Shown here: piece after piece, positions 3,890 to 52,818 of the stretch
Layout of the letters: each line of letters begins with the position of its first letter
Position numbering within the stretch: position 1 is the first letter of the stretch
Source of the DNA: Pseudomonadales bacterium
GTDB lineage: Bacteria > Pseudomonadota > Gammaproteobacteria > Pseudomonadales > Pseudohongiellaceae
DNA: 52,818 bases
Reading direction: 5' to 3'
NCBI GenBank assembly: GCA_028281635.1
Contig: JANQJM010000203.1
Location: forward strand, 1 to 52,818
Program-made: the position numbers and the translations under genes
Notes under the pieces: generated by a model
Told to the model about the DNA's origin: nothing
Databases searched by the model: none
What the model saw: only the letters and a program-made list of their open reading frames with translations

Positions 3890-3905
3890 TGGCACGGGGT
3901 TTGCT
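3890..3905 (+). promoter_or_regulatory. sigma-54 promoter 2, driving the transporter operon
   Basis: TGGCACG-GGGT-TTGCT matches the sigma-54 consensus. The predicted leader to the adaptor ATG at 4066 is about 150 bases. This is the only clear promoter found upstream of the array. Intergenic gaps downstream are mostly under 60 bases, so this promoter may drive a very long transcript, possibly helped by weak internal promoters that I cannot identify. Confidence 0.85.
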
Positions 3906-3984
3906 GTTAATACTGTGCTGGTCAGTGCTCACTGTTAACCAAACTCGAATAGGAGTTGATACCAGATTGGTAGTGTGGAGCAGC

Positions 3985-4056
3985 ATGCAATCTAGAAAGG
4001 GGAGCCTGGCCAGCATTGAACATGACGACGCGTCACCAACTACTCTGTCACGATGA
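3985..4056 (+). CDS. possible 23-residue leader peptide
   Basis: A short frame starts at ATG 3985, with GGAG four bases upstream, and ends in TGA nine bases before the adaptor start. The peptide is polar (begins MQSRKGSLASIEHDD) and has no hydrophobic stretch. It could be a translated leader that couples to the adaptor gene, or a chance frame in the 5' untranslated region. The AGGAG near 3951 is too far away to serve it. I see no run of regulatory codons. Confidence 0.25.
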   Translation: MQSRKGSLASIEHDDASPTTLSR

Positions 4057-4065
4057 GAAAGTCAC

Positions 4066-5316
4066 ATGGACAAAGTCCGCAAAAAGTCGAAATTTGCCGT
4101 AGTCAGAAAGATCGCGCTCAGTGTAGTAGCCATAGCTGTCCTGGTCTCGGGCGCTATTGCGATCGCTAATATTGATTTCGAAAGTCGCCGGGTTGATCGG
4201 GATACGCTGCTGATTGGCACGGTTGAACGCGGTGATTTGGAAATTCGCATTAGTGCCAATGGCCAACTACTCCCCAGAGACCTCGAACTCATCTCTGCAC
4301 AGGTGGAGGGAAGAGTCGCCCGTGTGCATGTTGATCCAGGCGATGAGGTTACAAAGGGACAGCTACTGGCAGAACTCACCAATCCACAATTAGTTAATGC
4401 GGCTGAAGAAGCCTACTCCGCCTGGGAAGGTGCGGTTGCCGATTTGCAGGCTTTTGAAGTTGAACTGGAGAATCAGATACTGAACCAAGAATCGGAAGTG
4501 ATGAGGGTTCGGTTCCAGCTTGAAAAAACTAGTATGGAACGGGAGAGGAAACGACCGCTACATCAAAAGGGAATTATCCCGGACATCGAGTTTCAGCAGA
4601 TTCTCCTCGATGTTGATCAATTACAACAAACTCTTGAGATTGAAAATAAACGACTACAGCGCAATCGTGACAATATGCAAACCTTGTTGTCCGTCAGAGA
4701 ATCACGGGTCACCCAACTCGCACGGGCGTTGGACCGGGCAAACAACAACGTCAGCAGTCTCGAGATTACCGCCGGTATAGATGGCATCGTGCAGGAATTG
4801 GATCTGGAACTTGGTCAGCAACTCATGCTGGGAAGTCCTATCGGTAGATTAGCCCGGCAGGATTTACTCTATGCTGAACTGAGAGTACCAGCACGTCAGG
4901 CTGGGGACGTTGTTAGAGGACAAAACGTTGTAGTTGATACGCGCAACGGCACGGTCAATGGAGTGGTAACTCGCATTGATCCAGGAGTTACCGAAGGGAC
5001 TGTCATCGTCGATGTGGACATACACGATGCATTGCCACGCGGCGCGCGTCCTCAGTTACAGGTGGAAGGCATCATCTACGTAGCCCAGATAGCGGATGCG
5101 CTACACGTCGGCAGGCCGACATTCATTCGTACAGATGCGGAAGTCACGATCTACAAACTGGATGATGTGGGTGAGTACGCTGAACGCATCAATGTGCGCA
5201 TGGGCAGAGCTTCTGTCAACAGAGTGGAAATCCTCGATGGCCTGGTGCCCGGGGACCGGGTTATTTTGTCTGACAGCAGCGACTGGCAGGATCACGACCG
5301 TATCCTATTAAACTAG
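4066..5316 (+). CDS. HlyD/MacA-type periplasmic adaptor
   Basis: This is a membrane fusion protein of the kind that links an inner-membrane ABC exporter to an outer-membrane channel. An N-terminal anchor (about residues 14-34) follows a basic MDKVRKKSK tail. A biotinyl-lipoyl half-motif lies at about 65-105 (VEGRVARVHVDPGDEVTKGQLL). A charged coiled-coil hairpin spans about 110-225 and is followed by the second lipoyl half (ITAGIDGIVQELDLELGQQL), a beta-barrel, and a C-terminal membrane-proximal domain (VRMGRASVNRVEILDGLVPGDRVIL). The length of 416 residues is normal. It is the only adaptor in the window, so if the permeases act as MacB-like exporters they must share it. No TolC gene follows it, unlike many MacA-MacB-TolC clusters. 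It is first in the operon behind sigma-54 promoter 2. Confidence 0.94.
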   Translation: MDKVRKKSKFAVVRKIALSVVAIAVLVSGAIAIANIDFESRRVDRDTLLIGTVERGDLEIRISANGQLLPRDLELISAQVEGRVARVHVDPGDEVTKGQLLAELTNPQLVNAAEEAYSAWEGAVADLQAFEVELENQILNQESEVMRVRFQLEKTSMERERKRPLHQKGIIPDIEFQQILLDVDQLQQTLEIENKRLQRNRDNMQTLLSVRESRVTQLARALDRANNNVSSLEITAGIDGIVQELDLELGQQLMLGSPIGRLARQDLLYAELRVPARQAGDVVRGQNVVVDTRNGTVNGVVTRIDPGVTEGTVIVDVDIHDALPRGARPQLQVEGIIYVAQIADALHVGRPTFIRTDAEVTIYKLDDVGEYAERINVRMGRASVNRVEILDGLVPGDRVILSDSSDWQDHDRILLN

Positions 5317-5387
5317 ATAGCAAATCACCCTGGCCACAAGCACGAGTGTGGATAGGCAGCAGCAAGTAATTAGTACAGGAATTGATT

Positions 5388-6134
5388 ATGACTGGTAGAA
5401 CATTGATCCAACTTGAGAATGTCAGCAAAACCTACAAGGTCGGTAAGTTGGAGAGCACTGTCCTAAGCGACATCGATCTGACTATCTCCGAGGGGGAATA
5501 TGTTTCTATCTGCGGGCCTTCCGGCTGTGGCAAATCTACCCTGCTTTCCATCATCGGCGTGCTGAATGGCGCCACAACTGGTCGTTATCTGTTCGATGGC
5601 GCAGACATCACCAGCATGAAGCAGTCCGAGCATGCACGAATTCGTAATCGTCAAATTGGGTTTATTTTCCAGGCATTCAATCTTAGTTCGGAAATGACAG
5701 CAGCGGAAAACGTTGAGCTTCCATTGACCTACCGAAAAGAAATGGGTCGAAAAGAACGTAAGGAACTAGTGGAAGAAATGTTGGACAAGATCGGCATGAC
5801 TGATTTCGCCAATCACTTTCCGGCACAGCTTTCCGGCGGCCAGCAACAAAGAATTGCCATTGCACGAGCGTTAGCAGGAAAACCAAAAATCATTCTTGCA
5901 GACGAGCCTACCGGCAATCTGGATTCCAAGGCTGCTGCTATCGTAATGGATATTTTCGACCGACTAAACGCCGAAGGTACAACTATCTGCCTGGTGACCC
6001 ACGATCCACGCTCTGCCTCCAAAGCAAAGCGTCAGGTGCATTTGTTTGATGGACGAATTGTCGATGGCCCTAAGGAAGAAGGGTCGAACGAAGACAGCAA
6101 TGGAAGTAACTCAAATCACTTACATGCTGTTTAG
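5388..6134 (+). CDS. ABC transporter ATPase 1, MacB/LolD type
   Basis: This is the cytoplasmic motor subunit for the FtsX-fold permeases. Walker A GPSGCGKST is at 43-51, the Q-loop Gln95 is in FIFQAFNL, the signature LSGGQQQ is at 148-154, Walker B IILADE is at 168-173, and the H-loop His205 is in VTHDPR. The ENVELPLTYRK segment after the Q-loop is typical of the MacB/LolD/FtsE group. ATG 5388 is preferred over an upstream in-frame TTG at 5382, because AGGA lies seven bases before the ATG but only one base before the TTG. The C-terminus ends in a 25-residue polar, Asn/Ser-rich tail that the second ATPase lacks. It stands immediately before the first permease block (tails ending LRYE), with a 152-base gap holding a hairpin. 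Confidence 0.95.
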   Translation: MTGRTLIQLENVSKTYKVGKLESTVLSDIDLTISEGEYVSICGPSGCGKSTLLSIIGVLNGATTGRYLFDGADITSMKQSEHARIRNRQIGFIFQAFNLSSEMTAAENVELPLTYRKEMGRKERKELVEEMLDKIGMTDFANHFPAQLSGGQQQRIAIARALAGKPKIILADEPTGNLDSKAAAIVMDIFDRLNAEGTTICLVTHDPRSASKAKRQVHLFDGRIVDGPKEEGSNEDSNGSNSNHLHAV

Positions 6135-6203: not shown

Positions 6204-6235
6204 AAAAATTGCACACATGGATGTGTGATTTTTTT
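6204..6235 (+). terminator. hairpin with T-run between ATPase 1 and permease 1
   Basis: CACACA-TGGA-TGTGTG (6212-6227) is followed by A and seven T. An A-run at 6204-6208 can extend the pairing with the T-run. It resembles a weak intrinsic terminator or attenuator. Because the permeases lack another obvious promoter, partial read-through is more plausible than full termination; it would make adaptor and ATPase 1 more abundant than the permeases. A second, looser inverted repeat (CTGGCG at 6165-6170, CGCCAG at 6191-6196) lies just upstream. Confidence 0.45.
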
Positions 6236-6286: not shown

Positions 6287-8701
6287 ATGCTAGCACTCAA
6301 TGATCTGAAGTATTTGCTACGTTTACTCGCTAAAACTCCGGGTTTTACTGCAGTTACTCTCCTGGTCATTGTCTTAGGTCTGTCACTCTTTCTAACCAGC
6401 TTTACCTTCACTCGACAGATTGCCAGCGAGCCCATGCCGTTTCCTGACGGAGACCGCTATGTGACTTTGGGCGCCAACGATGGCCGCAGCGGTTTTATGT
6501 TGCAACGATCTGTTCACGATGCACTCAGCTTCAGCACGCTTCGCGACAATGCGGAGAGCTTTAGCTTGCTTGGAGCTTACAACCGCAGCTATGTGGTGCT
6601 CAGCGGTGACGGATTTCCACAACGAATTGAGCAGGCAACTATTACGGCGGAGCTATTTGCTGCGACCGCTGTACAACCAGTACTAGGGAGAATGTTCAAT
6701 AGCAACGATGCCCTTGCTTCAGGCAGCATGGCGGCCATCATCAGTCATGATGTTTGGTCAAGTTTCTTCGCCGCGAATCCCAACATTGTTGGTCAGTCCG
6801 CTGACATTAACGGTGAGCCCACCACCATCATCGGCATCATGCCAGAGGGCTTCGGCTTCCCCCGCGGCGCGAAGTTGTGGACACCCTTGATTGTCTCAAA
6901 CGGCTCACTGCCAGGAGGGGACCCCCTTAACGTCGTTGGCATACTGAATGCTGACGCCAGCCCTGACTCCGCCAGACTAGAAATTGAATCTCTGATGGGA
7001 GCGTTGTTTGAAGAATATCCCGACTATGACACGAACCGGGTAGAGACCATACGGCCCTACGCATCGCTCTACCCCGGTGGGGTCACCCTGCCAGATATCC
7101 TGCTTTATATTGCCTGGATAGTGCTGGTCTTGGCTGTAGTCAACCTCTCTTCACTGCTTTTCGTTCGCCTTGCATCCAGAGAGCAGGAATTACTCATCAG
7201 GTCCTCTGTTGGCGCGAACGGTGTTGAGCTAGTGAAACAGGTTCTGATGGAAACATTTTCCTTTTGCTTCCTTGGGCTTGTGCTGTCCATTGGTCTTTCA
7301 AGCTTACTGTTACAAGTCCTTCGAATAGCCTGGGGAGTCGATGTGCCCTACTGGGTGGATTTCAAACTGGATTCGCAGGGGGTTCTTGCAGCATGTCTGA
7401 CAACAACAGCCGTGTGGCTGATTTCTGGCGTCGCCATCGCCAAACGTGCTTATGCAAGCGATACCGCAGACGTATCCATAGGCTCTGCAGTAACCGGTAA
7501 GGGAAAACGGGACTCTTCACAATATGTCGTCGCAATTGAAGTCGTGCTCTCCTGCTTTTTATTGGTTTGTTGCGGTGGGGCCATCTATCTTTTCCAGCTT
7601 GGCTACAACACTGACTACGGTGTCGAAAGCGAAAACACGATTGTCGCGTCTTTTAGCTTTGCCAATGAAAACTACAATGAAGACTCACAGCGCACTGGTT
7701 ATATACGCAACTTACTAAGCAGTGTTGAATCCACCTACGGTGTGGATGCTGCTGCGGCCACTTCGTCGCTGCCCCATCGCATGGGAAGACGTGGCACTTT
7801 CATCATTCCTGATATCGAACCGGAGGCAGCAGACGACTCGTTCCGGCAGTCAACTATTTCCATTAGTGCAGACTACTTCGACATCATGGGAGTGACGGTT
7901 CTGGAAGGGAGGGCCTTTGACGGCACGGACACTCCCGATTCGGAAGCCGTCGCTATCATCAGTGAAGAATTCGCCGAGCAATTTTGGGCTGATGAGTCCG
8001 CCATCGGCAAGCAGATTATAAGCAGCACTGACGGGCAAGAACAAAACCTGACCATCGTTGGAGTAACCAGCCTCGTCCTGCAAAGCGAATATGACTTCGA
8101 ACGCTTGCCTAGCATTTACAGACCAGTGGCGCAGTATACCCCTGACAACTATTACCTGGTGACCAAACATTCAGCGGAGGTCACGGCAGCTGAGCTAGAG
8201 CCTGCGATCAGATCAGCGGCTCTCGGCGTAGACAGAAACCTGCCAGTGGAAAACATTCGTCCTTTGGCAGATCAGATGGTTATAGATAAATCTGGAGTCG
8301 GCGGATTCGCTATGCTTTTCGTCGAGTTCACTATTGCCACCCTGATTCTCGCAAGCATAGGAATCTATGCCGTGATCGCCAGATCAATCTACTTGCGCAC
8401 ACATGAAATAGGCGTACGACGGGCGCTTGGCTCCACAGACTTGAGACTGATTGCCAGATTCCTGCAGAAAGGCGCTTACTTCCTGGGTGCTGGCATAGTC
8501 TTTGGTGCAATTCCGGCAATGGCCTTATCAGTAACGGCTTTTTCGGTAATGGCACCGATAGGCAATCAGGTGATCGCCTATATGCCCACCATTTCTCTAT
8601 TTGCCGTGTTGATCGTCTCTTTCTTAATCGTTATCGCGTCATACATTCCTGCGAAGAAGGCCGTGGCTTTAGAGCCCGGTGATGCGTTGCGCTATGAGTA
8701 A
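6287..8701 (+). CDS. permease 1, duplicated MacB/FtsX-type ABC permease (RYE block)
   Basis: This is the reference copy for the array. The order is TM1 (about 20-42), MacB-like periplasmic domain 1 (50-265), TM2 (272-294), a first coupling helix (ELLIRSSVGANG, about 301-312), TM3 (318-342), TM4 (366-388), TM5 (412-436, SCFLLVCCG), periplasmic domain 2 (445-670), TM6 (676-700), a second coupling helix (EIGVRRALGSTD, 707-718), TM7, TM8 and the tail EPGDALRYE. The 804 residues are thus two MacB-like permease halves in one chain, so a single polypeptide could form the full membrane dimer. No ATPase domain is fused. Periplasmic domain 1 keeps DGDRYV and GIMPEGFGFP. The QFWADESAIGKQI stretch has Ala where the other copies have Pro. 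Periplasmic domain 2 lacks the DLxDRDL strand seen in most neighbours. The ATG follows AGGAT by 11 bases. Confidence 0.93.
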   Translation: MLALNDLKYLLRLLAKTPGFTAVTLLVIVLGLSLFLTSFTFTRQIASEPMPFPDGDRYVTLGANDGRSGFMLQRSVHDALSFSTLRDNAESFSLLGAYNRSYVVLSGDGFPQRIEQATITAELFAATAVQPVLGRMFNSNDALASGSMAAIISHDVWSSFFAANPNIVGQSADINGEPTTIIGIMPEGFGFPRGAKLWTPLIVSNGSLPGGDPLNVVGILNADASPDSARLEIESLMGALFEEYPDYDTNRVETIRPYASLYPGGVTLPDILLYIAWIVLVLAVVNLSSLLFVRLASREQELLIRSSVGANGVELVKQVLMETFSFCFLGLVLSIGLSSLLLQVLRIAWGVDVPYWVDFKLDSQGVLAACLTTTAVWLISGVAIAKRAYASDTADVSIGSAVTGKGKRDSSQYVVAIEVVLSCFLLVCCGGAIYLFQLGYNTDYGVESENTIVASFSFANENYNEDSQRTGYIRNLLSSVESTYGVDAAAATSSLPHRMGRRGTFIIPDIEPEAADDSFRQSTISISADYFDIMGVTVLEGRAFDGTDTPDSEAVAIISEEFAEQFWADESAIGKQIISSTDGQEQNLTIVGVTSLVLQSEYDFERLPSIYRPVAQYTPDNYYLVTKHSAEVTAAELEPAIRSAALGVDRNLPVENIRPLADQMVIDKSGVGGFAMLFVEFTIATLILASIGIYAVIARSIYLRTHEIGVRRALGSTDLRLIARFLQKGAYFLGAGIVFGAIPAMALSVTAFSVMAPIGNQVIAYMPTISLFAVLIVSFLIVIASYIPAKKAVALEPGDALRYE

Positions 8702-8727
8702 TTCGACTAAAGGGTGTAACAAGCATT

Positions 8728-11184
8728 ATGCAACTACTAAGTGACTTCAATTATTCGTTGCGCTTGCTACGAAAAACACCTGCATTTACAGGCATTACGT
8801 TGTTAATAATTGTGCTGGGCCTTTCTCTGTATACGACCGCCTATACTTTGGAACAAATTCTCACCGATAAACCATTGCCCTACCCAGATGGTGATCGCTA
8901 TGTCGCATTGAAAACGATATTTGAAAATTCGGGTAATAATGAAAGAGGGCTGAACAACCACAGCGAATACTCTTATCGATACATAGAGGCGAATTCTGAC
9001 AGTTTCTCGTCGTTGCATGCCTACACCATGTCAAACTACGTATTGAGCGATGGTGAATATGCCCGAACCTTCAGTGGCGCGGCACTGGAATGGGAATTTT
9101 TGCAAGCGACCGCCATAACCCCCATCCTGGGTAGAGTTTTCAATCAAGCCGATGCTGTTCCAGGGGCAGAGAGCGTAGTTGTTATTAGCGAATCCGTATG
9201 GGAAAGCTATTACAACAGTGATCCGGGTATTATCGGTCATACCAGCAGGATCAACGGTGAACCAGCAACGATTGTTGGTGTACTACCCAGTAGTTTCCAG
9301 TTTCCTATATGGGAACAAGTCTGGGTGCCGCTATCTATCTCGCAGACCCCGGCGCCGCCCGATGGCAGTGTCTTCGATGTTTCTTCATCTATCTCCTTAG
9401 TCGGAATCCTGGAACCTGGAGTTGACTCGGACAGCGCAGGTAACGAACTCACTGCTCTTGTCAGTCAATTGGCTAGCTCGTTCCCGGAGACTTTCGACGA
9501 CCGGCTGGAATACCTGTCACCATTCGTAAGCCTGAATCAGGACCGCGGATTCAATTTTGGCAGGATAATGTCTTTCATCACCTTGGTGATCCTGGCTCTT
9601 GCGGTGATCAATCTCTCTTCACTGCTCTTTATCCGATCCAGAAGCAGGCAACACGAACTGGCAGTACGATCTTCTGTGGGGGCAAGCGGACGCGAACTGG
9701 CAAAACAGGTATTACTGGAGTCATTCGTTATTTGTTTCATTGGATTTCTGCTGAGCCTGGTGCTCAGCATGGTCCTCACCGAAACACTGAACTATCTTTT
9801 CGTAAACAGCATGGGCCTTTTGCCCTTCTGGTTTGAGATGTCATTGGAGGCCGATGCTATAGCAATCGGCCTGTTTCTAACGGCACTCATCTGGCTTGCC
9901 GCCGGCCTGCCGATGGCAGTACACGCTTACCGGAGTCAATCTGCCGCCTTGCTGGGGGGCAATAATAAAGGTGTTCAATCTTCGAGTCGTAATCTGGTCA
10001 CGAAAGCTGTTGTCACGACAGAAGTCGTGCTGTCTTTTTTCTTACTCGTCTGCTGCGGTGCGACCATTTATATCGCAGCGCGGGTACTGGATGTTGAATA
10101 CGGCATAGATACCCAAAAACATATGGTTGGTTCATTCAACCTTAATCATCCTGACTATCAGTCGGACTCCGAGAAAGTCCGCTATATTCAAACTCTGATT
10201 GAACGTGTAGAAGAAATCCCGGAAATCACTCTGGCCGCAGTCAGCACCGCACCCCCCGGTAGTTTTGGCCTCGCAGCCAACTATGAACTCGATGATCGTG
10301 ATGTGGCAGTCGGTGACCAATTGCCAATTTTGCGAACTATCTGGGTAAACGACGGCTATTTTGACTCTCTGAATATTGAGCTGCTGTCAGGCAGGGAATT
10401 CACAGGAGGCGATACAGGCAACTCCAATGCAATTACGGTTATACAGCAAAATCTTGCTGACTCGCTGTGGCCGGGAGAATCGGCGCTAGGCAAACGAATA
10501 GGAGTTACTCGACAAGGCGAAACTGAGTGGCTGACTGTGGTGGGGGTGGTGTCAAACCTGCTGCAGGCAGCAATGAACATCAGTGATATTCCACCGAGTA
10601 TTTATCGCCCGATCAGCCAAAGCACACCGACCAACTACTATTTGGTCGCTCAATTTCAAACCAATATCTCACTGGCCGATCTCGAAACTCAGCTGCGGAT
10701 TGCTGCAGGCAATGTTGATCGGAACATTGCAATTGACAACTTCCGGCTTTTGCAACGGCAAATAGAAATAAACCAGGCTGGCCTCGATATTCTCGAGCCA
10801 GTTTTTCTGACATTTGCGCTCGCCACGTTCTTGCTGGCGGGTATAGGCATATATGGCGTGATCGCCAGATCCATTACGCTGCGCAAACATGAGATTGGCG
10901 TTCGCCGAGCCGTGGGATCTGGCAATCACGCGATTGTTTTGAGATTTCTGGGACAAGGCACGGCTTACCTGCTAATTGGCACATTACTGGGCGGTACCAC
11001 TGCGGTGATAGCTATATCGGGTATCGTTTCCTCTCTTTCCAGTTCCGCCAGTATGTCAGCATTTCTACCTACAACGGTATTCACCGTCATCCTGCTGATG
11101 GGCGCTTTGGTATTTCTAGCCTGTTATATCCCAGCTAAACGAGTGATCAGCTTAGAACCCGGTGACGCGCTCCGCTATGAATAA
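8728..11184 (+). CDS. permease 2, duplicated MacB/FtsX-type ABC permease (RYE block)
   Basis: It has the same two-half architecture as permease 1 but 818 residues. Periplasmic domain 1 has GVLPSSFQFP in place of the usual GVMPEGFxFP, and a Pro/Ser-rich stretch (TPAPPDGSVFDVSSS) just before the SLVGIL strand that other copies lack. The first coupling helix is ELAVRSSVGASG and the second is EIGVRRAVGSGN. TM5 reads SFFLLVCCG. Periplasmic domain 2 keeps the ELDDRDV and LWPGESALGKRI motifs. Its start region, from a few bases before the ATG through codon 5, is nearly identical in DNA to that of permease 8. The ribosome-binding site is weak (AGGG 14 bases upstream), and translation may rely on the upstream stop 26 bases away. 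Confidence 0.93.
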   Translation: MQLLSDFNYSLRLLRKTPAFTGITLLIIVLGLSLYTTAYTLEQILTDKPLPYPDGDRYVALKTIFENSGNNERGLNNHSEYSYRYIEANSDSFSSLHAYTMSNYVLSDGEYARTFSGAALEWEFLQATAITPILGRVFNQADAVPGAESVVVISESVWESYYNSDPGIIGHTSRINGEPATIVGVLPSSFQFPIWEQVWVPLSISQTPAPPDGSVFDVSSSISLVGILEPGVDSDSAGNELTALVSQLASSFPETFDDRLEYLSPFVSLNQDRGFNFGRIMSFITLVILALAVINLSSLLFIRSRSRQHELAVRSSVGASGRELAKQVLLESFVICFIGFLLSLVLSMVLTETLNYLFVNSMGLLPFWFEMSLEADAIAIGLFLTALIWLAAGLPMAVHAYRSQSAALLGGNNKGVQSSSRNLVTKAVVTTEVVLSFFLLVCCGATIYIAARVLDVEYGIDTQKHMVGSFNLNHPDYQSDSEKVRYIQTLIERVEEIPEITLAAVSTAPPGSFGLAANYELDDRDVAVGDQLPILRTIWVNDGYFDSLNIELLSGREFTGGDTGNSNAITVIQQNLADSLWPGESALGKRIGVTRQGETEWLTVVGVVSNLLQAAMNISDIPPSIYRPISQSTPTNYYLVAQFQTNISLADLETQLRIAAGNVDRNIAIDNFRLLQRQIEINQAGLDILEPVFLTFALATFLLAGIGIYGVIARSITLRKHEIGVRRAVGSGNHAIVLRFLGQGTAYLLIGTLLGGTTAVIAISGIVSSLSSSASMSAFLPTTVFTVILLMGALVFLACYIPAKRVISLEPGDALRYE

Positions 11185-11202
11185 TCTGACTATGGGCAAA
11201 GT

Positions 11203-13644: not shown

Positions 13645-13665
13645 CTATTCAGTGAGTAACAAGTA

Positions 13666-16101: not shown

Positions 16102-16120
16102 TTATCGGGAGACGCTGTAG

Positions 16121-18541: not shown

Positions 18542-18676
18542 ATACACCCTGGAAACTACTGCTTGCTGGCATCGATTTACAGTAATGAACTCTCAGTTTT
18601 CCCTAAGACCAAGTGCGGAATACGCGATTTTGAGGTTGCGTAATCTTCGATTCAGAACAGGACTATCTCTAAGAAC
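18542..18676 (+). other. 135-base gap with a possible N-terminal permease relic
   Basis: This is the longest gene-free gap inside the first permease block, where gaps are otherwise 18-36 bases. A short frame from ATG 18585 to TAG 18689, overlapping the start of permease 6, encodes a 34-residue peptide containing EYAILRLRNLRFRTGLSL. That resembles the permease N-terminus (YxLRLLRKxxxF...LGLSL) in a compressed form. It may be the decayed start of a lost copy, or coincidence. No promoter or terminator is evident. Confidence 0.25.
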
Positions 18677-21115: not shown

Positions 21116-21136
21116 CTTAACTACAGGTAATGTCTG

Positions 21137-34419: not shown

Positions 34420-34460
34420 CACTATAGAACAAATCAGAAGCACACAAGGAAACCGGCAAA

Positions 34461-36890: not shown

Positions 36891-36904
36891 ACGGAGATAA
36901 CGTA

Positions 36905-39373: not shown

Positions 39374-39407
39374 CCGCCAACTACATTAACTACCGAGAGG
39401 CAGCATC

Positions 39408-40160
39408 ATGAAACTTCAGCAATCCCTAGTTATGAGGCAAATCTTAGTCTTCTTTCTTTTATTAACGTTGAGCGGTTGTGTCATCTATAGCCGCAGCAGC
39501 GACCCCACAAGAATTAGATCTACCAACTCGACAATCGTGCTGACACCCGAACCTGAACAGGGACGCAATGTCAGCAACGTCAACGGGCGCATCGTGGTAG
39601 GCACCGGCATGACCGTGAACGATGTGGACTCTGTAAACGGCCGCGTTACGGTTGAAGACGGCGCGACCGCCAGGAATGTGGAAACCGTCAATGGGCGAGT
39701 GACAATCGGCGGTCGTAACGCCCGCGTCAACGATGTGGAGACGGTTAATGGCCGTATTACTGCAGTGAATGGCGGGCAGATTGATGGCAATGCAAGAGCC
39801 GTCAACGGTCGTATCAGTCTTTCCAATGTCACCGTGGGGCGCTCGGTCAGAACTTCTAACGGTGACATCCAACTATTCGACGTGAGTGTTGGCGAAAACG
39901 TCGAGACCCGAACCGGCGATATTCGTTTGGAGAACAGCGTTATAGAAAATGACGTGATCATTCAGCGGCGAAGAGTCAGGGGGATCCTGGACATCATGAA
40001 CAGGAATTGGGGCAGGCAGGAAGTTGTCATCGGCCCCGGTTCAGAGATTCGGGGAACCTTATTGGCTAGAGACGAGATTACGCTTTACGTTCATGAATCT
40101 GCTTCTGTAAACAATATTGTCGGTGCGACACCGCGAACTTATAGCGGGTTACGGCCCTAA
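39408..40160 (+). CDS. lipoprotein with VNGR-type repeats, predicted beta-helix
   Basis: This 250-residue protein has a type II signal peptide: MKLQQ, a hydrophobic LVFFLLLTLSGC, and the lipobox LSGC with Cys24 as the likely acylated residue. Residue +2 after Cys is Val, which does not suggest inner-membrane retention, so outer-membrane sorting is expected. From about residue 53 to 175, short repeats of roughly 20 residues recur: NVNGRIVVGTG, SVNGRVTVEDG, TVNGRVTIGGR, TVNGRITAVNG, AVNGRISLSN, TSNGDIQLFD, TRTGDIRLEN. This pattern predicts a right-handed beta-helix, as in DUF4097/adhesin-like or polymer-forming domains. It is the only non-transporter gene inside the array. It could be an accessory surface or periplasmic factor, or an unrelated insertion. 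GAGAGG lies seven bases before the ATG. A second ATG at codon 9 is possible but would shorten the signal peptide. Confidence 0.88.
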   Translation: MKLQQSLVMRQILVFFLLLTLSGCVIYSRSSDPTRIRSTNSTIVLTPEPEQGRNVSNVNGRIVVGTGMTVNDVDSVNGRVTVEDGATARNVETVNGRVTIGGRNARVNDVETVNGRITAVNGGQIDGNARAVNGRISLSNVTVGRSVRTSNGDIQLFDVSVGENVETRTGDIRLENSVIENDVIIQRRRVRGILDIMNRNWGRQEVVIGPGSEIRGTLLARDEITLYVHESASVNNIVGATPRTYSGLRP

Positions 40161-40182
40161 CCTCGGATCAAGACAAAAGTTA

Positions 40183-40206
40183 GGACTGTAATTTCCAACA
40201 GTTTTT
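40183..40206 (+). terminator. weak hairpin with T-run after the lipoprotein gene
   Basis: ACTGT (40185-40189) and ACAGT (40198-40202) can pair, with two further G-T pairs, around an eight-base loop, and five T follow. It is a weak candidate terminator or attenuator between the lipoprotein and permease 14. Confidence 0.3.
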
Positions 40207-40216
40207 GCATTATGAG
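40205..40216 (+). repeat. direct repeat, right copy; vestigial permease 3' end
   Basis: TTGCATTATGAG is identical to the end of permease 10 and shares ten bases with the end of permease 13. It lies 12 bases before permease 14, outside any gene, and reads like the LHYE codons of a lost permease end. Together with the copy at 39360-39369 it brackets the lipoprotein gene. Confidence 0.5.
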
Positions 40217-40227
40217 AAGAAGAAAAT

Positions 40228-42684: not shown

Positions 42685-42735
42685 TCACCGCGTGTCTTTG
42701 CAGGGCAGTACAAATACAGTCGAGGAGGTTGCTCT

Positions 42736-45195: not shown

Positions 45196-45221
45196 TCACC
45201 CTAATTGAGGAGGTCGCTACA

Positions 45222-47711
45222 ATGTATCTGTCATTAGACCTGCAACACAATCTTCGCTCACTGCGTAGAAATCTCGGATTCGTGACTCTTTGCATATTGG
45301 TCATCGCAATGGGCATTGCTGTCTCCATTACGATGTATTCACTCATTACTAACTCTGTTTATCGATCAATGCCATTTCCTGATGGTGGCAATTATGTGGC
45401 AATGCGAACTATTGATCACGATACGGGACAAGAACAACAAGGGGCCGCCGTCGATAGTTTTACATACCAGTACCTCAAGTCCTCGGTTGAAAGCTATCAA
45501 GCATTTGGGTCTTGGCGCGACTCTTTTATTACTTTCAGCGACGGAGAAGTAGCAGAACAGTATTTCGCTTCCTATATCTCTCCTGAATTAATGCAGATCA
45601 GTGCGATAGAACCTTTGATGGGGCGTGCCTTACTTCCAAGCGACGATGTGGCAGATGCAGAACCAGTTGTAGTGCTGTCCTACCACGTTTGGCAGAGTTA
45701 TTACGCTGGTCAGGAAGACATCATTGGCAGAACCAGCCGTATCGACGGCGATCTCTATACCATTGTCGGTGTAATGCCCGAAGGTTTTATGTATCCAGTC
45801 AGCGGTGAGGTCTGGCTACCCTCTCAATTGCCTACTAATGCACAGCCGGGTGGCCAACCCAATGTTTGGATTATGGGGGTGTTGACAGATGACGTTGACA
45901 TTGAGAGTGCTGAAGCAGAGTTAAATGCATCATTACAGGCTTTAGGTCAGCGCTTGCCTGAGTTCTACAATAATCTGGGCGCCACCCTAATACCTTTCAC
46001 TCGATTTCTAGCGCCATCCATGACTTACTGGAATATCCTGACGGGCCTGACAGTTGCTCTCTTGTTATTGGTCTCTCTCAATGTCGCCAATTTGCTAGTA
46101 GTTCGTACCACTGAACGCATTCAAGAGCTGGCAATTCGTAATGCGCTGGGTGCCACGCCGTGGTTATTGGTTCGATCTGTACTTCTCGACTCCTTATTGA
46201 TCTGTATATTGGGTCTCGCCCTAGGCACCTTGCTGGCAGACCTCGGAATGACTTCCATCGGGGCGATGATGAGCGGTATCTACCAAGACGTCAGTCAGAC
46301 CAGGCCGCCTTCATGGTCGACTGGTTACAATTGGGAACTGGGCACGATCGTTACTACTGTGTTAGCGATTGGACTGATTTGGTTGTTCTCGTCTGTATTT
46401 GCTGTTCGGAAAGTCATACGACACGACATTTCCATGCCGCTGGGAGGCGGCAGTACAGGATCTGCAATCTCTGGCAAATCAAACGGCAATGCTGCCCTTG
46501 TCACCTTTGAAGTTATCTTTTCTTGTTTTCTATTGATCTTTTGTGGTGCGCTGGTAGGCACTGCAAATGAAATGAGTGAAATCGAATATGGTACTGCTAC
46601 TGATGGTTATTTAACTGGTAGGATCGCGTTGCCCACGACGAGCTATTCTGATGCCTCATCGCGAGAAGTATATCGCCAGAATTTGAGACAGGAATTGCTG
46701 CAACAAGAGGGTATCAGCGAAGTCGTATTCGTCTCCTCATTACCTAGTCAACAGGGTATCCCCGTTACCTACAACCTAGAAGACCGCAATGTTCTAACTG
46801 AGTCAGCAAGATACCCCACACAAGAGATCGTCTACGTAGGCCCTGACTATTTTACCGCCATGGATGTGCCATTGAGAGAAGGGAGAGAATTCGATGGCTC
46901 CGAGAACGCGACTTCACTACCGGTAGTTATTGTCAATGAATTGTTCGCCCAACAAATGTGGCCCGATGAATCAGCCATCGGAAAACGCATCGAGGTCAAC
47001 CCAGAATCTGAAGATTCGGAATGGCTTACAGTTGTAGGTGTTACGTCACATATCATTCAACGTTGGTCATATTTTGGTACGAATGTACCCGTCCTTTATC
47101 GCCCTTTCTCTCAGAGTCCAGCTAATCGTAGCGTAGTACCTCAAGCAGGACTGGCCCAAAGCAGCGGTGAAGTATTCCACGTTGTTCTAAAAGTTGATGA
47201 GGCTAACCCAGATCAATATCGCCGTGTCTTGCAGGAAGCAGCCACCAGAATTGATCGCGACGTCCCAATTACATTTCTATTTCTGTTGGCAGAGTTGTTG
47301 GAGTTAACTAATGCCATGTCCACCAATTCGACCGCGATATCGTCGAACATCGCATTGTTTACTCTGGTATTAGCTGTAACGGGCATTTACGCCATCGTGG
47401 CGAGGTCAGTGAATCAACGAACTCGTGAGATTGGCATTCGCCGTGCCTTAGGATCAAGCGATAGAAATGTTCTATGGGTATTCATTCGTCAGGGCTTTAA
47501 GTATCTCGCAGCAGGCTTGTTGATAGGTGGTGGTGCTGCAGTTTTGGTCTCCAATGCGATGTCCATCATATTTGTTGGAATTGGAGGTTGGGTCCCCATC
47601 TCCTTCATCGGCGTAAGCTTGGGTCTTGGCCTGCTAATCTTCTTCGCAGCCTACCACCCAGCTAGCAATTTAGTGGCAATAGAACCCGGCGAGGCGCTGC
47701 ACTATGAATAG
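45222..47711 (+). CDS. permease 16, duplicated MacB/FtsX-type permease (HYE block)
   Basis: At 829 residues this is the longest copy. It is most similar to permease 11, four permeases away, and carries the same kind of polar insertion in periplasmic domain 2 (SPANRSVVPQAGLAQSSGE). It also has an extended loop before TM4 (YQDVSQTRPPSWSTGYNWELG). The conserved basic pair just before the tail (PAR/K-K) is PASNLVAIEPGEALHYE, an unusual loss on the cytoplasmic side. The coupling helices are ELAIRNALGATP and EIGIRRALGSSD. TM5 is SCFLLIFCG. GAGGAGG precedes the ATG. Periplasmic domain 2 keeps MWPDESAIGKRI. Confidence 0.93.
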   Translation: MYLSLDLQHNLRSLRRNLGFVTLCILVIAMGIAVSITMYSLITNSVYRSMPFPDGGNYVAMRTIDHDTGQEQQGAAVDSFTYQYLKSSVESYQAFGSWRDSFITFSDGEVAEQYFASYISPELMQISAIEPLMGRALLPSDDVADAEPVVVLSYHVWQSYYAGQEDIIGRTSRIDGDLYTIVGVMPEGFMYPVSGEVWLPSQLPTNAQPGGQPNVWIMGVLTDDVDIESAEAELNASLQALGQRLPEFYNNLGATLIPFTRFLAPSMTYWNILTGLTVALLLLVSLNVANLLVVRTTERIQELAIRNALGATPWLLVRSVLLDSLLICILGLALGTLLADLGMTSIGAMMSGIYQDVSQTRPPSWSTGYNWELGTIVTTVLAIGLIWLFSSVFAVRKVIRHDISMPLGGGSTGSAISGKSNGNAALVTFEVIFSCFLLIFCGALVGTANEMSEIEYGTATDGYLTGRIALPTTSYSDASSREVYRQNLRQELLQQEGISEVVFVSSLPSQQGIPVTYNLEDRNVLTESARYPTQEIVYVGPDYFTAMDVPLREGREFDGSENATSLPVVIVNELFAQQMWPDESAIGKRIEVNPESEDSEWLTVVGVTSHIIQRWSYFGTNVPVLYRPFSQSPANRSVVPQAGLAQSSGEVFHVVLKVDEANPDQYRRVLQEAATRIDRDVPITFLFLLAELLELTNAMSTNSTAISSNIALFTLVLAVTGIYAIVARSVNQRTREIGIRRALGSSDRNVLWVFIRQGFKYLAAGLLIGGGAAVLVSNAMSIIFVGIGGWVPISFIGVSLGLGLLIFFAAYHPASNLVAIEPGEALHYE

Positions 47712-47720
47712 GTATACAAC

Positions 47721-50168
47721 ATGAACTTGTTATTCAACCTCCGCTACACACTGAGACTACTACGTAAAAGCCCTGGTACTGCCGTTGTTGCTGTCTTCAT
47801 CATGGCACTTGGTCTGGCTGTGGCGGTACCGCTGTATGCACTCATTAAGAACATAGGCTATAGCTCTCTGCCCTTTCCTGATGGGGACAGAATAGTCCGG
47901 GTTATGGCATTGAATAATGAGACAGGACAACCGTTGCGGATCGGGTTCGATAGCTACCAATATGAACTGATGAAAAGTTCGCTTGAAAACGTGGAGGAAT
48001 TCGCCGCCTACGATAGTTTCAGGGTTATTCTAAGCGATGGCGATGTGGCCGTAGATTTCATGGGAGGGCAGGTTACTTCTTCTTTCTTCTCCATCATGCC
48101 GGCCGAACCTTTTCTGGGGCGCACACTGCAACCGGCTGATGAAGAACCCGGAGCTCCGGCTGTCGTAGTACTTGGCTACAACACTTGGCAAAACTACTAT
48201 AGTGGTAATCCTGACATAATCGGTCAAAGCAGTCGGATCAATGGTGAACCCCACACCGTTGTTGGTGTCATGCCCGAGGGATACCGCTATCCCGAAGTGC
48301 GGGAGTTATGGACAGCCTTGCCTCTCAAGAATTCAAATCCAGGAGGCGTACGCAATCTGAGTGTTATGGCGACGCTAAGTGAATCTACTGATCTATCTGA
48401 GACCAGCGTTGCTATAGGCACACTTTTCGACGGACTCCGAGCTGACTATCCAGACATTTACCCTTTGGTTTCGGCAACTGTTGTTCCCTTTACCAGATAT
48501 CTAGCCGTCTCAACCGATATGAGCACAATAGGTATCCTCATGTCCGGGATTGCCCTGGCGACTCTTGTGCTGGTGAGTTTTAACCTCGGCAATCTGCTGC
48601 TGATCAGGGCTAATGAAAGACTGCAGGAACTGAGCATTCGCAATGCCCTGGGTTCGACAAAGCTGGAAATAATCCGTGAAGTGTTGCGGGAATCACTGAT
48701 CATTTGTACGGCCGGTCTTGCCTTCGGCCTGATTCTCTCCAGGTTAGTACTGGATTTTTTTAACTTCGAAATCAACTACCTTCTCGGCACCGAGGGGAGC
48801 TTTATGCTACCCCCTTGGGCAGTGTTCGAACTGACACCGAATGTAGTTTTAATTTCATTCCTGACAACGTTCTTTATTTGGATCGCCACCGGACTATTTA
48901 GTGCCTGGCGATTGGCCAGGCGGGATATTGGTACCTTCATTCAGGGGGGTGCTCACAGCCTGATCGGTGGCGCCGGCAAGCGTGCCCTGCATGTGCTGGT
49001 GGGGTTGGAGATTACTGTGTCGGCAGCCCTTCTTGTGGTATGCGGAGCGTCTTTCATCGCAACAATTAACGGTACCCGTGCCGATTTCGGTGCGGTAAAA
49101 GACAATTTTTTCACTGGGTACGTCGTACTCTCGGCATCAGCCTACGACAGCAAGGCGGCACGTCTCAACTATCTGAATGAGCTTCACACAGAATTGCTTG
49201 ATCAAAACGATTTCACTGACGTGACATTCAGCACGGCAGTTCCAGGACAGGACGGTGAGACAATTACCTATGCTCTCAATGATCGGCAGTTTGATACCGA
49301 CACACCACCGAGTCAGAACCAGGTTTGGGTCGCCGACAATTTTTTTGAGCTGTTTGAAGTGCCGTTGCAAGAAGGCCGGTGGTTCGATGCTGGTGATGTT
49401 GACGGTTCCCAGCCTGTCGTAATTGTGGATGAGCTGTTTGCTGAAAATACCTGGCCGGGAGAGTCGGCCATCGGGAAAAGCATCCAGGTAACCCAAGAAC
49501 AACGAACGGAGTCGTTGCAAATAGTTGGGGTCACCTCACACATCATACATGATGAACCTATGGCCCCTCAGTCAAGCTATACATCGCTGTATCGTCCGAT
49601 TGCTCAATCTCCTCTCGACTACTTCAGGGTAGCCGTAAAAGTCGAACAGACTCTCAATGCCGATATCGCCGCTGTCTCAAGCAGCCTGAGACAGGCTGCG
49701 ACAAGAGTTGATCGGGACGTGCCCGTACTGACGATACACCCTCTTGAAAGAGTTATGCAGAGTTCCATGAACGGAAACGACACGCTAGGCGAGATTCTGC
49801 TCGGTGTGGCGTTCGTTGTCTTCTCTCTAGCCATTGTTGCCCTTTTCGCCATTGTCTCCCGCTCGATTATTGCGAGAACCACAGAAGTAGGTATTAGACG
49901 AGCACTCGGATCGACCGAGTTAAAGGCCATATCACTCTTTCTAAAACAGGGACTTGGCCATGTTGCCTTCGCGCTGCCTGTTGGCGGTGGACTCGGAATT
50001 TTGATCAGCAGCAGCTTCCTGGCTGACACTGCTAATGTGGGGAGCATTATCGTTAATGTGTCAGTGGTGGTAGCACTGACGATCACCACAATGGTCTTTC
50101 TTGCTTCTTATATACCTTCTCGCAAGGTGGTAACTATGGAACCGGGTGAAGCACTGCACTATGAGTAG
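47721..50168 (+). CDS. permease 17, duplicated MacB/FtsX-type permease (HYE block)
   Basis: This 815-residue two-half permease starts only nine bases after permease 16, so translation is probably coupled; the only purine stretch upstream is AATAGG. The near-invariant GIYGV/A after TM6 is ALFAIVSRS, the most altered version in the array. TM5 is SAALLVVCG. The coupling helices are ELSIRNALGSTK and EVGIRRALGSTE. Periplasmic domain 1 keeps FPDGDRIVRV, TWQNYYSGNPDIIG and GVMPEGYRYP. Periplasmic domain 2 keeps TWPGESAIGKSI and YRPIAQS. The tail is MEPGEALHYE. Confidence 0.93.
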   Translation: MNLLFNLRYTLRLLRKSPGTAVVAVFIMALGLAVAVPLYALIKNIGYSSLPFPDGDRIVRVMALNNETGQPLRIGFDSYQYELMKSSLENVEEFAAYDSFRVILSDGDVAVDFMGGQVTSSFFSIMPAEPFLGRTLQPADEEPGAPAVVVLGYNTWQNYYSGNPDIIGQSSRINGEPHTVVGVMPEGYRYPEVRELWTALPLKNSNPGGVRNLSVMATLSESTDLSETSVAIGTLFDGLRADYPDIYPLVSATVVPFTRYLAVSTDMSTIGILMSGIALATLVLVSFNLGNLLLIRANERLQELSIRNALGSTKLEIIREVLRESLIICTAGLAFGLILSRLVLDFFNFEINYLLGTEGSFMLPPWAVFELTPNVVLISFLTTFFIWIATGLFSAWRLARRDIGTFIQGGAHSLIGGAGKRALHVLVGLEITVSAALLVVCGASFIATINGTRADFGAVKDNFFTGYVVLSASAYDSKAARLNYLNELHTELLDQNDFTDVTFSTAVPGQDGETITYALNDRQFDTDTPPSQNQVWVADNFFELFEVPLQEGRWFDAGDVDGSQPVVIVDELFAENTWPGESAIGKSIQVTQEQRTESLQIVGVTSHIIHDEPMAPQSSYTSLYRPIAQSPLDYFRVAVKVEQTLNADIAAVSSSLRQAATRVDRDVPVLTIHPLERVMQSSMNGNDTLGEILLGVAFVVFSLAIVALFAIVSRSIIARTTEVGIRRALGSTELKAISLFLKQGLGHVAFALPVGGGLGILISSSFLADTANVGSIIVNVSVVVALTITTMVFLASYIPSRKVVTMEPGEALHYE

Positions 50169-50204
50169 ACTCAGCGATCAAGCTTGCCATGGGGAGAATG
50201 TAGG

Positions 50205-52652
50205 ATGATTTTAAATTCGAACTTTCGATTCGCTTTGCGAATAATGTCAAAGCGAACAGGATTTAATTGCTTGTGTGCATTGGTAATCGCGCTTGGGCTG
50301 AGTATCTCCTTAATCAACATTGCGCTGATGAACATCGTTGCTTATGAAGAACTACCTTTCGAGGACGGTGATCGCTTCGCCATACCGCGAGTAGCAAATC
50401 AAATAAATAGTACGGTTCCAATAGAACTATGGGATATCTATCAATATACCTACCTGAAAGAAAACGCTCAGAGTTTCAGTGAAATTGGCGCGATGTTGCC
50501 GAGTCTGGCGGGCGTAATAAGCGACGGAGAAACAAGTGACAGGTACAACACAGCTGCCCTGACACCAAATCTCTTGAGGATCACTCAGGTGCAACCCTTA
50601 TTAGGGAGAAGCCTGACCGAAGAGGATGACCTACAGGGCGCACAGCCGGTTGCTATGATCAGTCACCGCGTTTGGCAGAATTTTTTCAACGGACGACAGG
50701 ATATCATCGGCTCACTCGCCCAAATAAATGGTGAAAACCGCACGATCATAGGTGTCATGCCCCCAGGCTTTGCTTACCCCATTGTCAACGACATCTGGAT
50801 TCCTCTGCACCTGACTCCGAACAGCCAACCCGGTGACGAATCCCCATTGCTCACCATCGCTGGTTTACTCGAGGAAGGCGCAAGCATCAGGTCGGCAAGT
50901 AGAGAACTCAATAATCTGCTGGACCGGCTGGTCTCTCAGTATCCGGAGCACTATCAGAGCTATCCAGCCGACGTCAGGCCCTATGTCTTAATTCAAAATG
51001 CAGGAACCATGCCGTTGGTTAATACGATGGCAGGTGTCATCGTTATTATCATTCTGCTTTCTTGTCTGAACTTGGGAAACCTTTTGCTAGTCCGGGCGAA
51101 CGAACGGTATCAAGAACTTCTCATTCGCAGCACTGTGGGAGCCAACCGAGTCAATCTGATATTTCCCGTACTACTTGAGTCCTTACTGATCTGTATTATC
51201 GGCGGATCGATAGGCCTCTTATTTACCTATGGCGGAATGGCATTCGTTGACAACGCCCTATTCAATTTGCGAGGCGTTGAACTTCCTTTTTGGGTCCATT
51301 TTGATTTAACAGGAGAAACAATAGCCCTCGCGCTAATCATAGTGCTGTTTATCTGGTTATTAGCCGGTGGCATCCCCGCCTGGAAAATGACCCGCATCGA
51401 CATCGCCCAGGGCTTGGGAAGTGGCAGTAAAGGCACAGCACAGATCGGCCACGGAAGGTCCACAACTGTCTTGGTTGGTTTCGAACTCATCGTATCCGTA
51501 TTTCTCCTGATCCTCTGTGGCATGCTGGTGTTGAACATTGAAGCAGCAAGCCGAGCTGACTATGGCGTAGAAAGCGCCAACCGATTGGCTGCCAGGGTCG
51601 ATCTACCGGAAGCCACCTATAGCACGGATCAAGCCCGAATTGAGTACCTTCAGAATTTGCAGTTAGAGCTGGAATCTACTCCAGAAGTCATTAACGCCAC
51701 ATTTGCGACAGCCCTGCCCGGGAACGGCGGCAGCTTTACTTCCGTCCAAATCGAGGACGCGGAGTTGAATGTGGAATCCAACTTACCTATACATCGGGTT
51801 GTTTCAGTAGCAGAACATTATTTTCAGGAGTTGGGCGTTGAACTTATTGGCGGAAGGTTCTTCGATTTCTCGGACACTGCAACGTCTCAGCAAGTAGCAG
51901 TAGTTGACGAGATTCTCGCCAGTCATTTGTGGCCCGCACTGTATGCTGAAAACCCGGCTTCTGTGATTGGCAAACGATTCATGCTTGAACCAGATGAGAA
52001 TCCTCAGTGGGTCACAGTGGTCGGAATCAACGGCCATGTCATTCAGAATTCTCCATTAGCGGAGCCACAACGCAGGGCCTCAATCTACAGGCCCTTCAGC
52101 CAGCGAACCCAGTCGAGAGTTGACCTGGTCATTGAGACCAGAGGAGACACGATTCAAAATTTCCAGGCACTGCAACTGGCGGCCTCTGCAGTTGACAGAG
52201 AGGTGCCACTATACCGATTTAGAAATTTCGACTTGGTGCTGACAGATTCTCTAGCGGCAATGGTTATCGTTGGTCAGATATTTACTGTCGTGTCACTAGT
52301 GACATTGGGGCTGGCTGCAAGCGGTATCTATGCCATCATCTCGCGGACAGTCCTCCAAAGAACCCATGAATCCGGTATTCGTCGTGCACTCGGATCGACA
52401 GATATCAATGCTGTTCTACTCTTCGTACGCAAGGGGCTCCTGTATTTCAGCATCGCGATAGTTGTTGGCGGAGTTATGGCAGCAATAAGTAGCCAGCCCC
52501 TGTCGGTTTTGTTTCCTCAAATGGCCGACTATCTACCCACCGTATTCCCGTCAGTCGCTTTGCTGTTCGGCCTCATCATCATGAGCGCATCCTATCTCCC
52601 TGCTCGCCGAATAGTCGCAATGGAACCTGGCGAAGCATTGCACTATGAATAA
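50205..52652 (+). CDS. permease 18, duplicated MacB/FtsX-type permease (HYE block)
   Basis: This is an 815-residue two-half permease. ATG 50205 is preferred over an in-frame TTG at 50184, because GGGGAG lies eight bases before the ATG and the protein then begins MILNSNFRFALRIM, aligned with its paralogues. Periplasmic domain 2 has a small insertion between Trp-Pro and Gly-Lys (LWPALYAENPASVIGKRF). The second coupling helix is ESGIRRALGSTD, with Ser for the usual Ile or Val. The first is ELLIRSTVGANR. TM5 is SVFLLILCG. DGDRF is retained, and GVMPEGF is GVMPPGFAYP. The tail is MEPGEALHYE. Confidence 0.93.
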   Translation: MILNSNFRFALRIMSKRTGFNCLCALVIALGLSISLINIALMNIVAYEELPFEDGDRFAIPRVANQINSTVPIELWDIYQYTYLKENAQSFSEIGAMLPSLAGVISDGETSDRYNTAALTPNLLRITQVQPLLGRSLTEEDDLQGAQPVAMISHRVWQNFFNGRQDIIGSLAQINGENRTIIGVMPPGFAYPIVNDIWIPLHLTPNSQPGDESPLLTIAGLLEEGASIRSASRELNNLLDRLVSQYPEHYQSYPADVRPYVLIQNAGTMPLVNTMAGVIVIIILLSCLNLGNLLLVRANERYQELLIRSTVGANRVNLIFPVLLESLLICIIGGSIGLLFTYGGMAFVDNALFNLRGVELPFWVHFDLTGETIALALIIVLFIWLLAGGIPAWKMTRIDIAQGLGSGSKGTAQIGHGRSTTVLVGFELIVSVFLLILCGMLVLNIEAASRADYGVESANRLAARVDLPEATYSTDQARIEYLQNLQLELESTPEVINATFATALPGNGGSFTSVQIEDAELNVESNLPIHRVVSVAEHYFQELGVELIGGRFFDFSDTATSQQVAVVDEILASHLWPALYAENPASVIGKRFMLEPDENPQWVTVVGINGHVIQNSPLAEPQRRASIYRPFSQRTQSRVDLVIETRGDTIQNFQALQLAASAVDREVPLYRFRNFDLVLTDSLAAMVIVGQIFTVVSLVTLGLAASGIYAIISRTVLQRTHESGIRRALGSTDINAVLLFVRKGLLYFSIAIVVGGVMAAISSQPLSVLFPQMADYLPTVFPSVALLFGLIIMSASYLPARRIVAMEPGEALHYE

Positions 52653-52668
52653 GTAAAAGGTTTTAGCT

Positions 52669-52818
52669 ATGAGACTTCCAGCAGAAATACTGTACAACTT
52701 GCGATTGCTATTAAAGAGCCCCGGCCATGTCATCATTTGTATTTTGGTAATCGGCATGGGCATGGGGTTGTCTATCACTGGTTATTCAATTCTGGAAAAC
52801 TTCAAACCGCAGGTCATG
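52669..52818 (+). CDS. permease 19, 5' fragment cut by the window end
   Basis: Fifty codons of a further permease are present: a basic amphipathic start (MRLPAEILYNLRLLLKSPG) followed by TM1 (VIICILVIGMGMGLSI). AAAAGG lies about nine bases upstream of the ATG, and the gene starts 16 bases after permease 18. The array therefore continues beyond this window, and its total size is unknown. Confidence 0.85.
   Translation, partial: MRLPAEILYNLRLLLKSPGHVIICILVIGMGMGLSITGYSILENFKPQVM

Follow-up and report, generated by a model that had tools for sequence, protein, structure and literature searches.

A row of twenty double permeases beside two ATPase genes and one adaptor gene: a candidate inducible export locus with exchangeable permeases

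Why should a single bacterial locus carry about twenty permease genes beside two ATPase genes and one adaptor gene? MacB-type exporters are usually viewed as having one permease per pump. We investigated this question for contig JANQJM010000203.1 of a Pseudomonadales bacterium (family Pseudohongiellaceae, assembly GCA_028281635.1); the window analysed is the entire contig, 52,818 nucleotides. On balance, we consider it probable that the row of double permeases found here belongs to a MacAB-like (Type VII ATP-binding cassette, ABC) inducible export locus under two-component and sigma-54 control, whose motors are shared by about 20 exchangeable permeases.

In the mechanism that we propose, a two-component pair and sigma-54 promoters would control the whole locus. 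Each permease is a pseudo-dimer in one chain and has two periplasmic domains. Through conserved coupling helices and the C-terminal helix it would bring in a dimer of the ATPase, and it would join the adaptor and a TolC-like channel encoded elsewhere. Every permease would transport a ligand of its own, from periplasm or membrane and most likely peptide-like. Each permease gene, together with its leader, would form a cassette, and recombination, often near conserved gene ends, would add or remove cassettes or exchange them between species. A wider reading, which we put forward only tentatively, is that of a transporter repertoire locus, in which an inducible motor-plus-adaptor platform serves a row of interchangeable permease cassettes and half-cassettes, shuffled within the genus by recombination at conserved gene ends to give lineage-specific export sets. 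If so, its logic would be comparable to that of an integron or a polymorphic immune locus, and export specificity could evolve by cassette exchange (11–20 exchangeable permeases, two motors). Such a row would also provide a natural panel for mapping ligand recognition by two periplasmic domains, and would hint at a way for duplicated permeases that lack an ATPase to draw on one in trans.

The permease row and its relatives

The list of open reading frames (ORFs) contains 18 complete double permeases of 804–829 residues within 6287..52652, all on the + strand. The gene order is response regulator, histidine kinase, tetratricopeptide repeat (TPR) protein, adaptor, ATPase 1, permeases 1–9, ATPase 2, a permease relic, permeases 10–13, a lipoprotein, permeases 14–18, and the start of permease 19 (Table 1). 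Spacers in the row span 9–67 bases, apart from 152 bases 5' of permease 1, 135 bases (18542–18676), and 192 bases (29297–29488) that contain the relic. The last 99 bases of the window match its own genome (G000; short-read assembly of 4.24 Mb in 257 contigs, 85.8% complete) at just two places, this one and the end of contig C143, which holds the rest of permease 19, permease 20, a gene for a 292-residue alpha/beta hydrolase (41-base overlap), and, after a strand change, genes on the opposite strand. The two contigs share this end exactly, in the way that assemblers break contigs at a single k-mer; a branch missing from the bin is possible. Across it, permease 19 (810 residues) and permease 20 (823 residues) are both open, giving 20 intact permeases over ~51 kb. 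A preliminary description of the window had counted 18 complete copies, one cut by the window end, and one relic, all on one strand, in agreement with the ORF list; extending the contig, as it suggested, reaches the end of the array on C143. It had also placed the row behind an adaptor, two ATPases, and a sigma-54 promoter; adaptor, ATPase 1, and promoter do lie ahead, but ATPase 2 lies inside the row. The lipoprotein gene within the row, the second exact sigma-54 site (2978), the regulator and kinase genes, and the gene for the secreted TPR protein are additions to that description.

We next looked for the same plan elsewhere. Searching named genomes with an adaptor profile gave 13 loci. Of 137 genomes of the family, 6, counting G000, matched the adaptor at E <= 1e-120, five from the window's genus (the others being G038, G039, G040, and G042) and one from another genus (G041), hence most of the genus and family are without the system. 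Matches were found in 4 of 390 genomes of the order sample at 1e-80 and in 2 of 369 of the class sample at 1e-100 (own included in both), and in 23 of 297 Acidobacteriota (the phylum of locus L018) at 1e-100. The row has 20 permeases in G000, 11 in G039 (one frameshifted), 15 in G040, and 14–15 across two contigs in G042, where two pieces may be one gene; G041 has one permease. The row of G038 is fragmented, and its order agrees in pieces. In all four genomes read across the locus (G000, G039, G040, and G042), the order is regulator, kinase, adaptor, ATPase 1, permeases, ATPase 2, permeases. ATPase 2 is present in all five genomes of the genus (identity to the window's copy 96% in G038, 94% in G039, 87% in G040, and 88% in G042), and a lipoprotein homologue lies inside the row of G000, G038, G040, and G042, with none seen in G039. 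An assembly artefact, a concern of the preliminary description, is ruled out as to the plan: the row occurs in five genomes of one genus, and G039 carries it on a single contig of 6,586,598 bases. In a genome survey of the kind it proposed, long rows were recovered within the genus. Among 19 further adaptor-match loci read, 16 of them from the Acidobacteriota search, four carry an ATPase next to a run of three or four permeases (L099, L100, L102, and L110). Five permeases were found at L107, with no ATPase in the stretch read, and four, interrupted by another gene, at L094. The counts from these 19 loci are lower bounds, since longest-frame annotation is rough in high-GC loci.

Permease exchange and coupling to ATPases

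Next, we compared the row with that of its closest relative, G038, also a short-read genome. Silent differences were 0.55 in five genes 3' of the row, 0.62 in the adaptor, 0.64 and 0.74 in the ATPases, 0.75 and 0.83 in kinase and regulator, and 0.50–0.71 in permeases 2, 6, 7, 17, and 20. By contrast, they were 0.07 in permease 16, 0.17 in permease 12, and 0.14–0.17 in permease 13 (chi-square p < 1e-34 each, sites taken as independent). The lipoprotein (0.33), the TPR gene (0.35), and permease 9 (0.36–0.39) also fall among the lower values. Permease 18 was best split at residue 456, near the border of its two halves, with 0.09 before and 0.59 after this point (gain 90 log units). A second locus (C222 versus C20 of G038) gave no usable baseline, as its silent sites were saturated at 28–84% protein identity.

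Gene order differs as well. G000 reads ATPase 2, scar, permeases 10, 11, 12, and 13, lipoprotein, whereas G038 has ATPase 2, scar, and permease 13 on one contig and permease 13, permease 12, and lipoprotein on another, so that the order of permeases 12 and 13 is reversed. Each of these two units has its own leader, and the matches begin in the last ~33 bases of the preceding gene and stop at gene ends. The scar after ATPase 2 is different in G000 and G038, and an intact permease occupies this place in G039, G040, and G042; judging from its reading frame, the relic of the window is a deletion scar. Several G038 permeases or pieces have no G000 permease match at >=60%. In a tree of 108 permeases, drawn without support values, members of different arrays are intermixed, with solitary genes among them. 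Because whole permeases and one half-permease carry far fewer silent changes than their neighbours, and because the order has changed and deletion scars are present, exchange of permease genes between species by recombination is supported by the sequences; this exchange, absent from the preliminary description, is the most unusual part of the finding. A special recombination-site repeat was also considered and rejected, as the direct repeats listed are coding motifs and the gene-end repeat is the conserved C-terminus.

Scars, the frameshifted copy in G039, and the strong variation in copy number might also be expected if tandem amplification were for the most part selfish or neutral and the copies had no distinct functions. 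We regard this as highly improbable: all 20 frames are intact at ~34% identity, and the G000–G038 orthologues, where the ratio of nonsynonymous to synonymous change (dN/dS) is defined, have values of 0.03–0.26. As judged from these alignments, the row permeases are under purifying selection.

We then analyzed which parts of the permeases are conserved. Mean pairwise identity of the 20 permeases is 34.5% overall, 71% in the C-tail, 53% and 64% in the coupling helices, and 47% in the N-helix, and falls to 35% and 31% in the periplasmic domains and to 23% and 15% in the outer loops. In MacB, according to PMC5985334, contacts with the ATPase are made by the coupling helix and by a minor coupling helix at the C-terminus. 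Around solitary same-subfamily permeases in related genomes, no ATPase was labelled within the 14–17 kb read. With 20 permeases per two ATPases, motor-facing conservation amid divergence, and solitary permeases without a labelled ATPase, the best reading is that many permeases would share the motors and one adaptor. The preliminary description had proposed such sharing for many periplasmic domains; gene counts and motor-facing conservation are as it would predict, and the sharing itself is what we infer from them.

Several observations weigh against the proposed export locus with shared motors. The copy number of 20 in G000 rests on a short-read assembly, and strain mixing in the two short-read genomes compared could inflate the low silent divergence, although low and high stretches share contigs. 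No TolC gene lies in the row, and eight PF02321 (OEP) stretches are located on six other contigs. There are 63 PF00005 matches in the genome. Moreover, nine more distant duplicated permeases on contig C2, without an ATPase of their own, have coupling helices 56% and 72% conserved, so this conservation is evidence of coupling with an ATPase but does not single out these two. Lastly, the C-terminal split between LRYE and LHYE by ATPase block (R in 16 of 19 permeases ahead of ATPase 2, H in 33 of 36 behind it) tracks permease clades, and outside the main clade one R and three H are found before ATPase 2. Permeases 1–9 of the window all end in LRYE.

Two further arguments were rejected. Coupling-helix conservation fails as proof of motor sharing because ATPase-less permeases keep these helices too. 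A rule by which the permease C-terminus matches its ATPase fails since the strong association tracks clades, and relatives in Lysobacterales and Acidobacteriota end in LRYE or LRHE with an ATPase-2-like partner.

Known exporters, control and candidate cargo

In the three of the 18 permeases that were Pfam-scanned, PF12704 and PF02687 each match twice per permease; PF12704 places are spread along the entire row. A predicted model of permease 10 (predicted local distance difference test score, pLDDT, 87.5) has YbbP, BceB, and MacB as its best fold matches. Together, domains, model, and fold matches give the features of Type VII ABC systems: units of four transmembrane (TM) helices, a MacB-like periplasmic domain, and a coupling helix between TM2 and TM3. 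The adaptor gene beside the transporter, above the TIGR01730 cut-off, is a MacAB-like trait. Like MacAB-TolC and MacAB homologues linked to nonribosomal peptide synthetases (NRPS), the locus has an adaptor, a MacB-like ATPase, a MacB periplasmic core domain, and the 4-TM unit, here twice. It differs from both in its separate ATPase, its duplicated permease, its 20 permeases per adaptor gene, and the lack of a TolC gene in the row.

ADOP permeases (TIGR03434) are defined as orphans without an ATPase gene nearby. The row permeases have the same length and domain order, and TIGR03434 is the best NCBIfam match of the three permeases scanned, all under the cut-off. Among 59 candidates in the own genome, 19 were scored (permease 12 not among them), with 475.9–609.5 bits, and none reached the curated cut-off of 622.3. 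Two PF00005 genes stand within the row, and an adaptor gene accompanies it. The preliminary description, which had likened the copies to ADOP and described ADOP as essentially not found beside ATPases, was therefore right about the resemblance but not about the setting; 4 of the 16 Acidobacteriota loci also have ATPase-linked rows.

The darobactin exporter DarBCD likewise consists of permease, adaptor, and ATPase subunits, and among NCBIfam models the two ATPases match DarD best and DarC ranks second for the adaptor, but all matches are far under their cut-offs (e.g. 238.6 of 375, 88.6 of 450, and 34.5 of 700 bits). Group II ECF transporters use one common motor module for many substrate-binding membrane parts, as proposed for the row; they are, however, importers of unrelated fold, with parts scattered rather than in one exchangeable row. 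Rows with sigma-54 regulators occur in Bacteroidota. Searches of the open PubMed Central (PMC) literature listed no paper describing a comparable array and none mentioning TIGR03434. We regard the row as a variant of a known exporter kind; ATPase-linked rows are not unique, and it is size, common plan, and turnover that stand out.

Control of the locus was examined next. The window has two exact sigma-54 matches against 0.13 expected by shuffling, and none of 100 shuffles reached two. In the 4.24 Mb genome, the palindrome TGTCCC-N(3–11)-GGGACA has three copies (2874, 3787, and C143:11458), against one for its backward control pattern. Those at 2874 and 3787 begin 104 and 103 bases, respectively, 5' of the two sigma-54 sites. 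The same pair of sites is found at both promoters of G038 and at the single promoter of G042. G040 has two exact sigma-54 sites without an exact palindrome, and G039 has a one-mismatch sigma-54 site with a degenerate palindrome. The regulator gene adjoins kinase and adaptor in all five array genomes. A -24/-12 site, an upstream palindrome as putative regulator site, and an adjacent AAA+ regulator gene are what a sigma-54/NtrC-type operon has. The third palindrome (C143:11458–11476, N7) lies ~28.5 kb away from the end that C143 shares with the window. Next to the array's own pair, G038 has another kinase and the end of another regulator gene (L050:7596–9296).

A locus with its own kinase and regulator and nearly exclusive palindromes could be a resistance or sensing hub, a sharper form of the export reading, in which the main task of the permeases would be to bind membrane-active peptides of foreign origin and to signal or clear them, as BceAB-type modules do together with their two-component system, with turnover tracking changing enemies. 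BceB is among the best fold matches, turnover is fast, and the lipoprotein in the row is possibly Toastrack-like, a fold that PMC11237479 ties to envelope stress. However, the kinase has a PAS domain and AtoS as its best NCBIfam match, an adaptor gene is present, unlike in BceAB, and the lipoprotein scores 18.3 bits against PF13349, under the cut-off of 22.9; moreover, PMC11237479 argues that Toastrack is intracellular, whereas a lipoprotein is predicted here. We consider such a hub possible, at somewhat less than even odds.

What the exporter might carry is suggested by Lysobacterales, where an NRPS gene with condensation, adenylation, and carrier domains stands next to the related adaptor and ATPase genes in three of four loci (L021, L022, and L025), with a double permease in the stretch at L021 and L025 but not L022; L019 has an adaptor/ATPase/permease set without a recognised NRPS. 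In the tree, permeases of L019, L020, L023, and L025 lie next to permease 9 on long branches. By this analogy, peptide-like cargo would be most likely. The preliminary description had suggested resistance to antimicrobial peptides or export of many products; the NRPS neighbourhoods lend indirect support to peptide substrates. Export of many self-made products, one permease per product, would fit these loci, and MacAB homologues are reported in operons for nonribosomal phytotoxins (PMC5985334). Even so, we think it unlikely, as the array stretches of G000, G039, G040, and G042 contain no synthetase-sized gene (largest other frame 856 residues).

YbbAP-TesA of E. coli, the top fold match, shares with the row a one-chain double permease and a separate ATPase, but has a single permease; PMC12646458 describes it as a lipid hydrolase complex and attributes to it the extraction of hydrophobic compounds. 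Handling of lipids or lipoproteins at the inner membrane, as by YbbAP-TesA or LolCDE, is nevertheless a poor candidate: the adaptor gene is conserved, a housekeeping lipid system would not be expected to have 20 diverged copies, and a TonB receptor gene follows the row in G042, with a 91% match there in G040.

Features of the window and neighbouring loci

Table 1. Positions of genes and candidate control sites in the window.
Feature	Position	Strand	Basis or remark
Sigma-54-dependent response regulator, NtrC type	141..1511	+	PF00072, PF00158, PF02954
Sensor histidine kinase with PAS	1513..2865	+	PF02518, PF00989
Palindrome TGTCCC-N6-GGGACA, putative regulator site 1	2874..2891	+	genome pattern search; same position in G038
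Sigma-54 promoter 1, exact TGGCAC-N5-TTGC	2978..2992	+	pattern match
Secreted TPR protein	3105..3767	+	start 3105, AAGGAG ahead of start; TPR matches under cut-offs
Palindrome TGTCCC-N6-GGGACA, putative regulator site 2	3787..3804	+	genome pattern search
Sigma-54 promoter 2, exact	3890..3904	+	pattern match
Periplasmic adaptor, HlyD/MacA type	4066..5316	+	TIGR01730 112.9 bits (cut-off 94.9), PF16576, PF13437
ATPase 1	5382..6134	+	PF00005; Walker A, LSGGQ, Walker B, H-loop present
Terminator-like hairpin between ATPase 1 and permease 1	6212..6227	+	terminator scan
Permeases 1–9	6287..28506; starts 6287, 8728, 11203, 13666, 16121, 18677, 21137, 23602, 26074	+	ORFs, PF12704 places
ATPase 2, motifs intact	28559..29296	+	PF00005
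Permease relic	29301..29414	+	~33 codons of permease N-terminus, in frame into the family's last codons (...ALHYE-stop)
Permeases 10–13	29489..39373; starts 29489, 31951, 34461, 36905	+	ORFs, PF12704 places
Lipoprotein within row, possibly Toastrack-like (DUF4097)	39408..40160	+	lipobox-like LTLSGC
Permeases 14–18	40228..52652; starts 40228, 42736, 45222, 47721, 50184	+	ORFs, PF12704 places
Permease 19, first 50 codons	52669..52818	+	remainder on contig C143

At the place of the hairpin ahead of permease 1, a GCACA..TGTG stem with a T-run was seen by eye in G038, G040, and G042, not in G039. The spacer that contains it folds no better than shuffles (z -0.85). This hairpin could set motor and adaptor levels above permease levels. 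Terminator-like sites exceed the shuffle expectation in all three scans (27, 24, and 13 versus 18.0, 17.6, and 8.0), nearly all of them intragenic, and sigma-70-like sites fall below it (3, 8, and 4 versus 22.5, 23.9, and 10.8). This depletion fits a single transcript but may be a coding effect. The TPR protein has a weak NCBIfam match to BstC (31.2 of 350 bits). Ahead of permease 14 (40161–40227) lies a GCATTATGAG remnant, which resembles the final codons of a lost permease.

Three neighbours of the rows were Pfam-scanned (the hydrolase, the TonB receptor, and a glycine betaine transporter); a 655-residue gene follows the row in G039. Other permeases of the same subfamily lie elsewhere in the row-carrying genomes, and no ATPase was labelled near them (L051–L054, L056, L057, L060, L061, and L064). 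TPR genes adjoin two of these (L052 and L056), and in G040 a solitary permease is followed by a homologue of the row lipoprotein (L053). The C2 group (C2:92009–120061, L003–L005) is made up of more distant duplicated permeases, about eleven in all with one on the opposite strand and no ATPase among them, and adjoins a regulator/kinase pair and an ATPase-permease-permease-adaptor set. Lastly, a related but separate system at C222:1–8028 (L006) has an adaptor, an ATPase, and three permeases, and is cut by the contig end.
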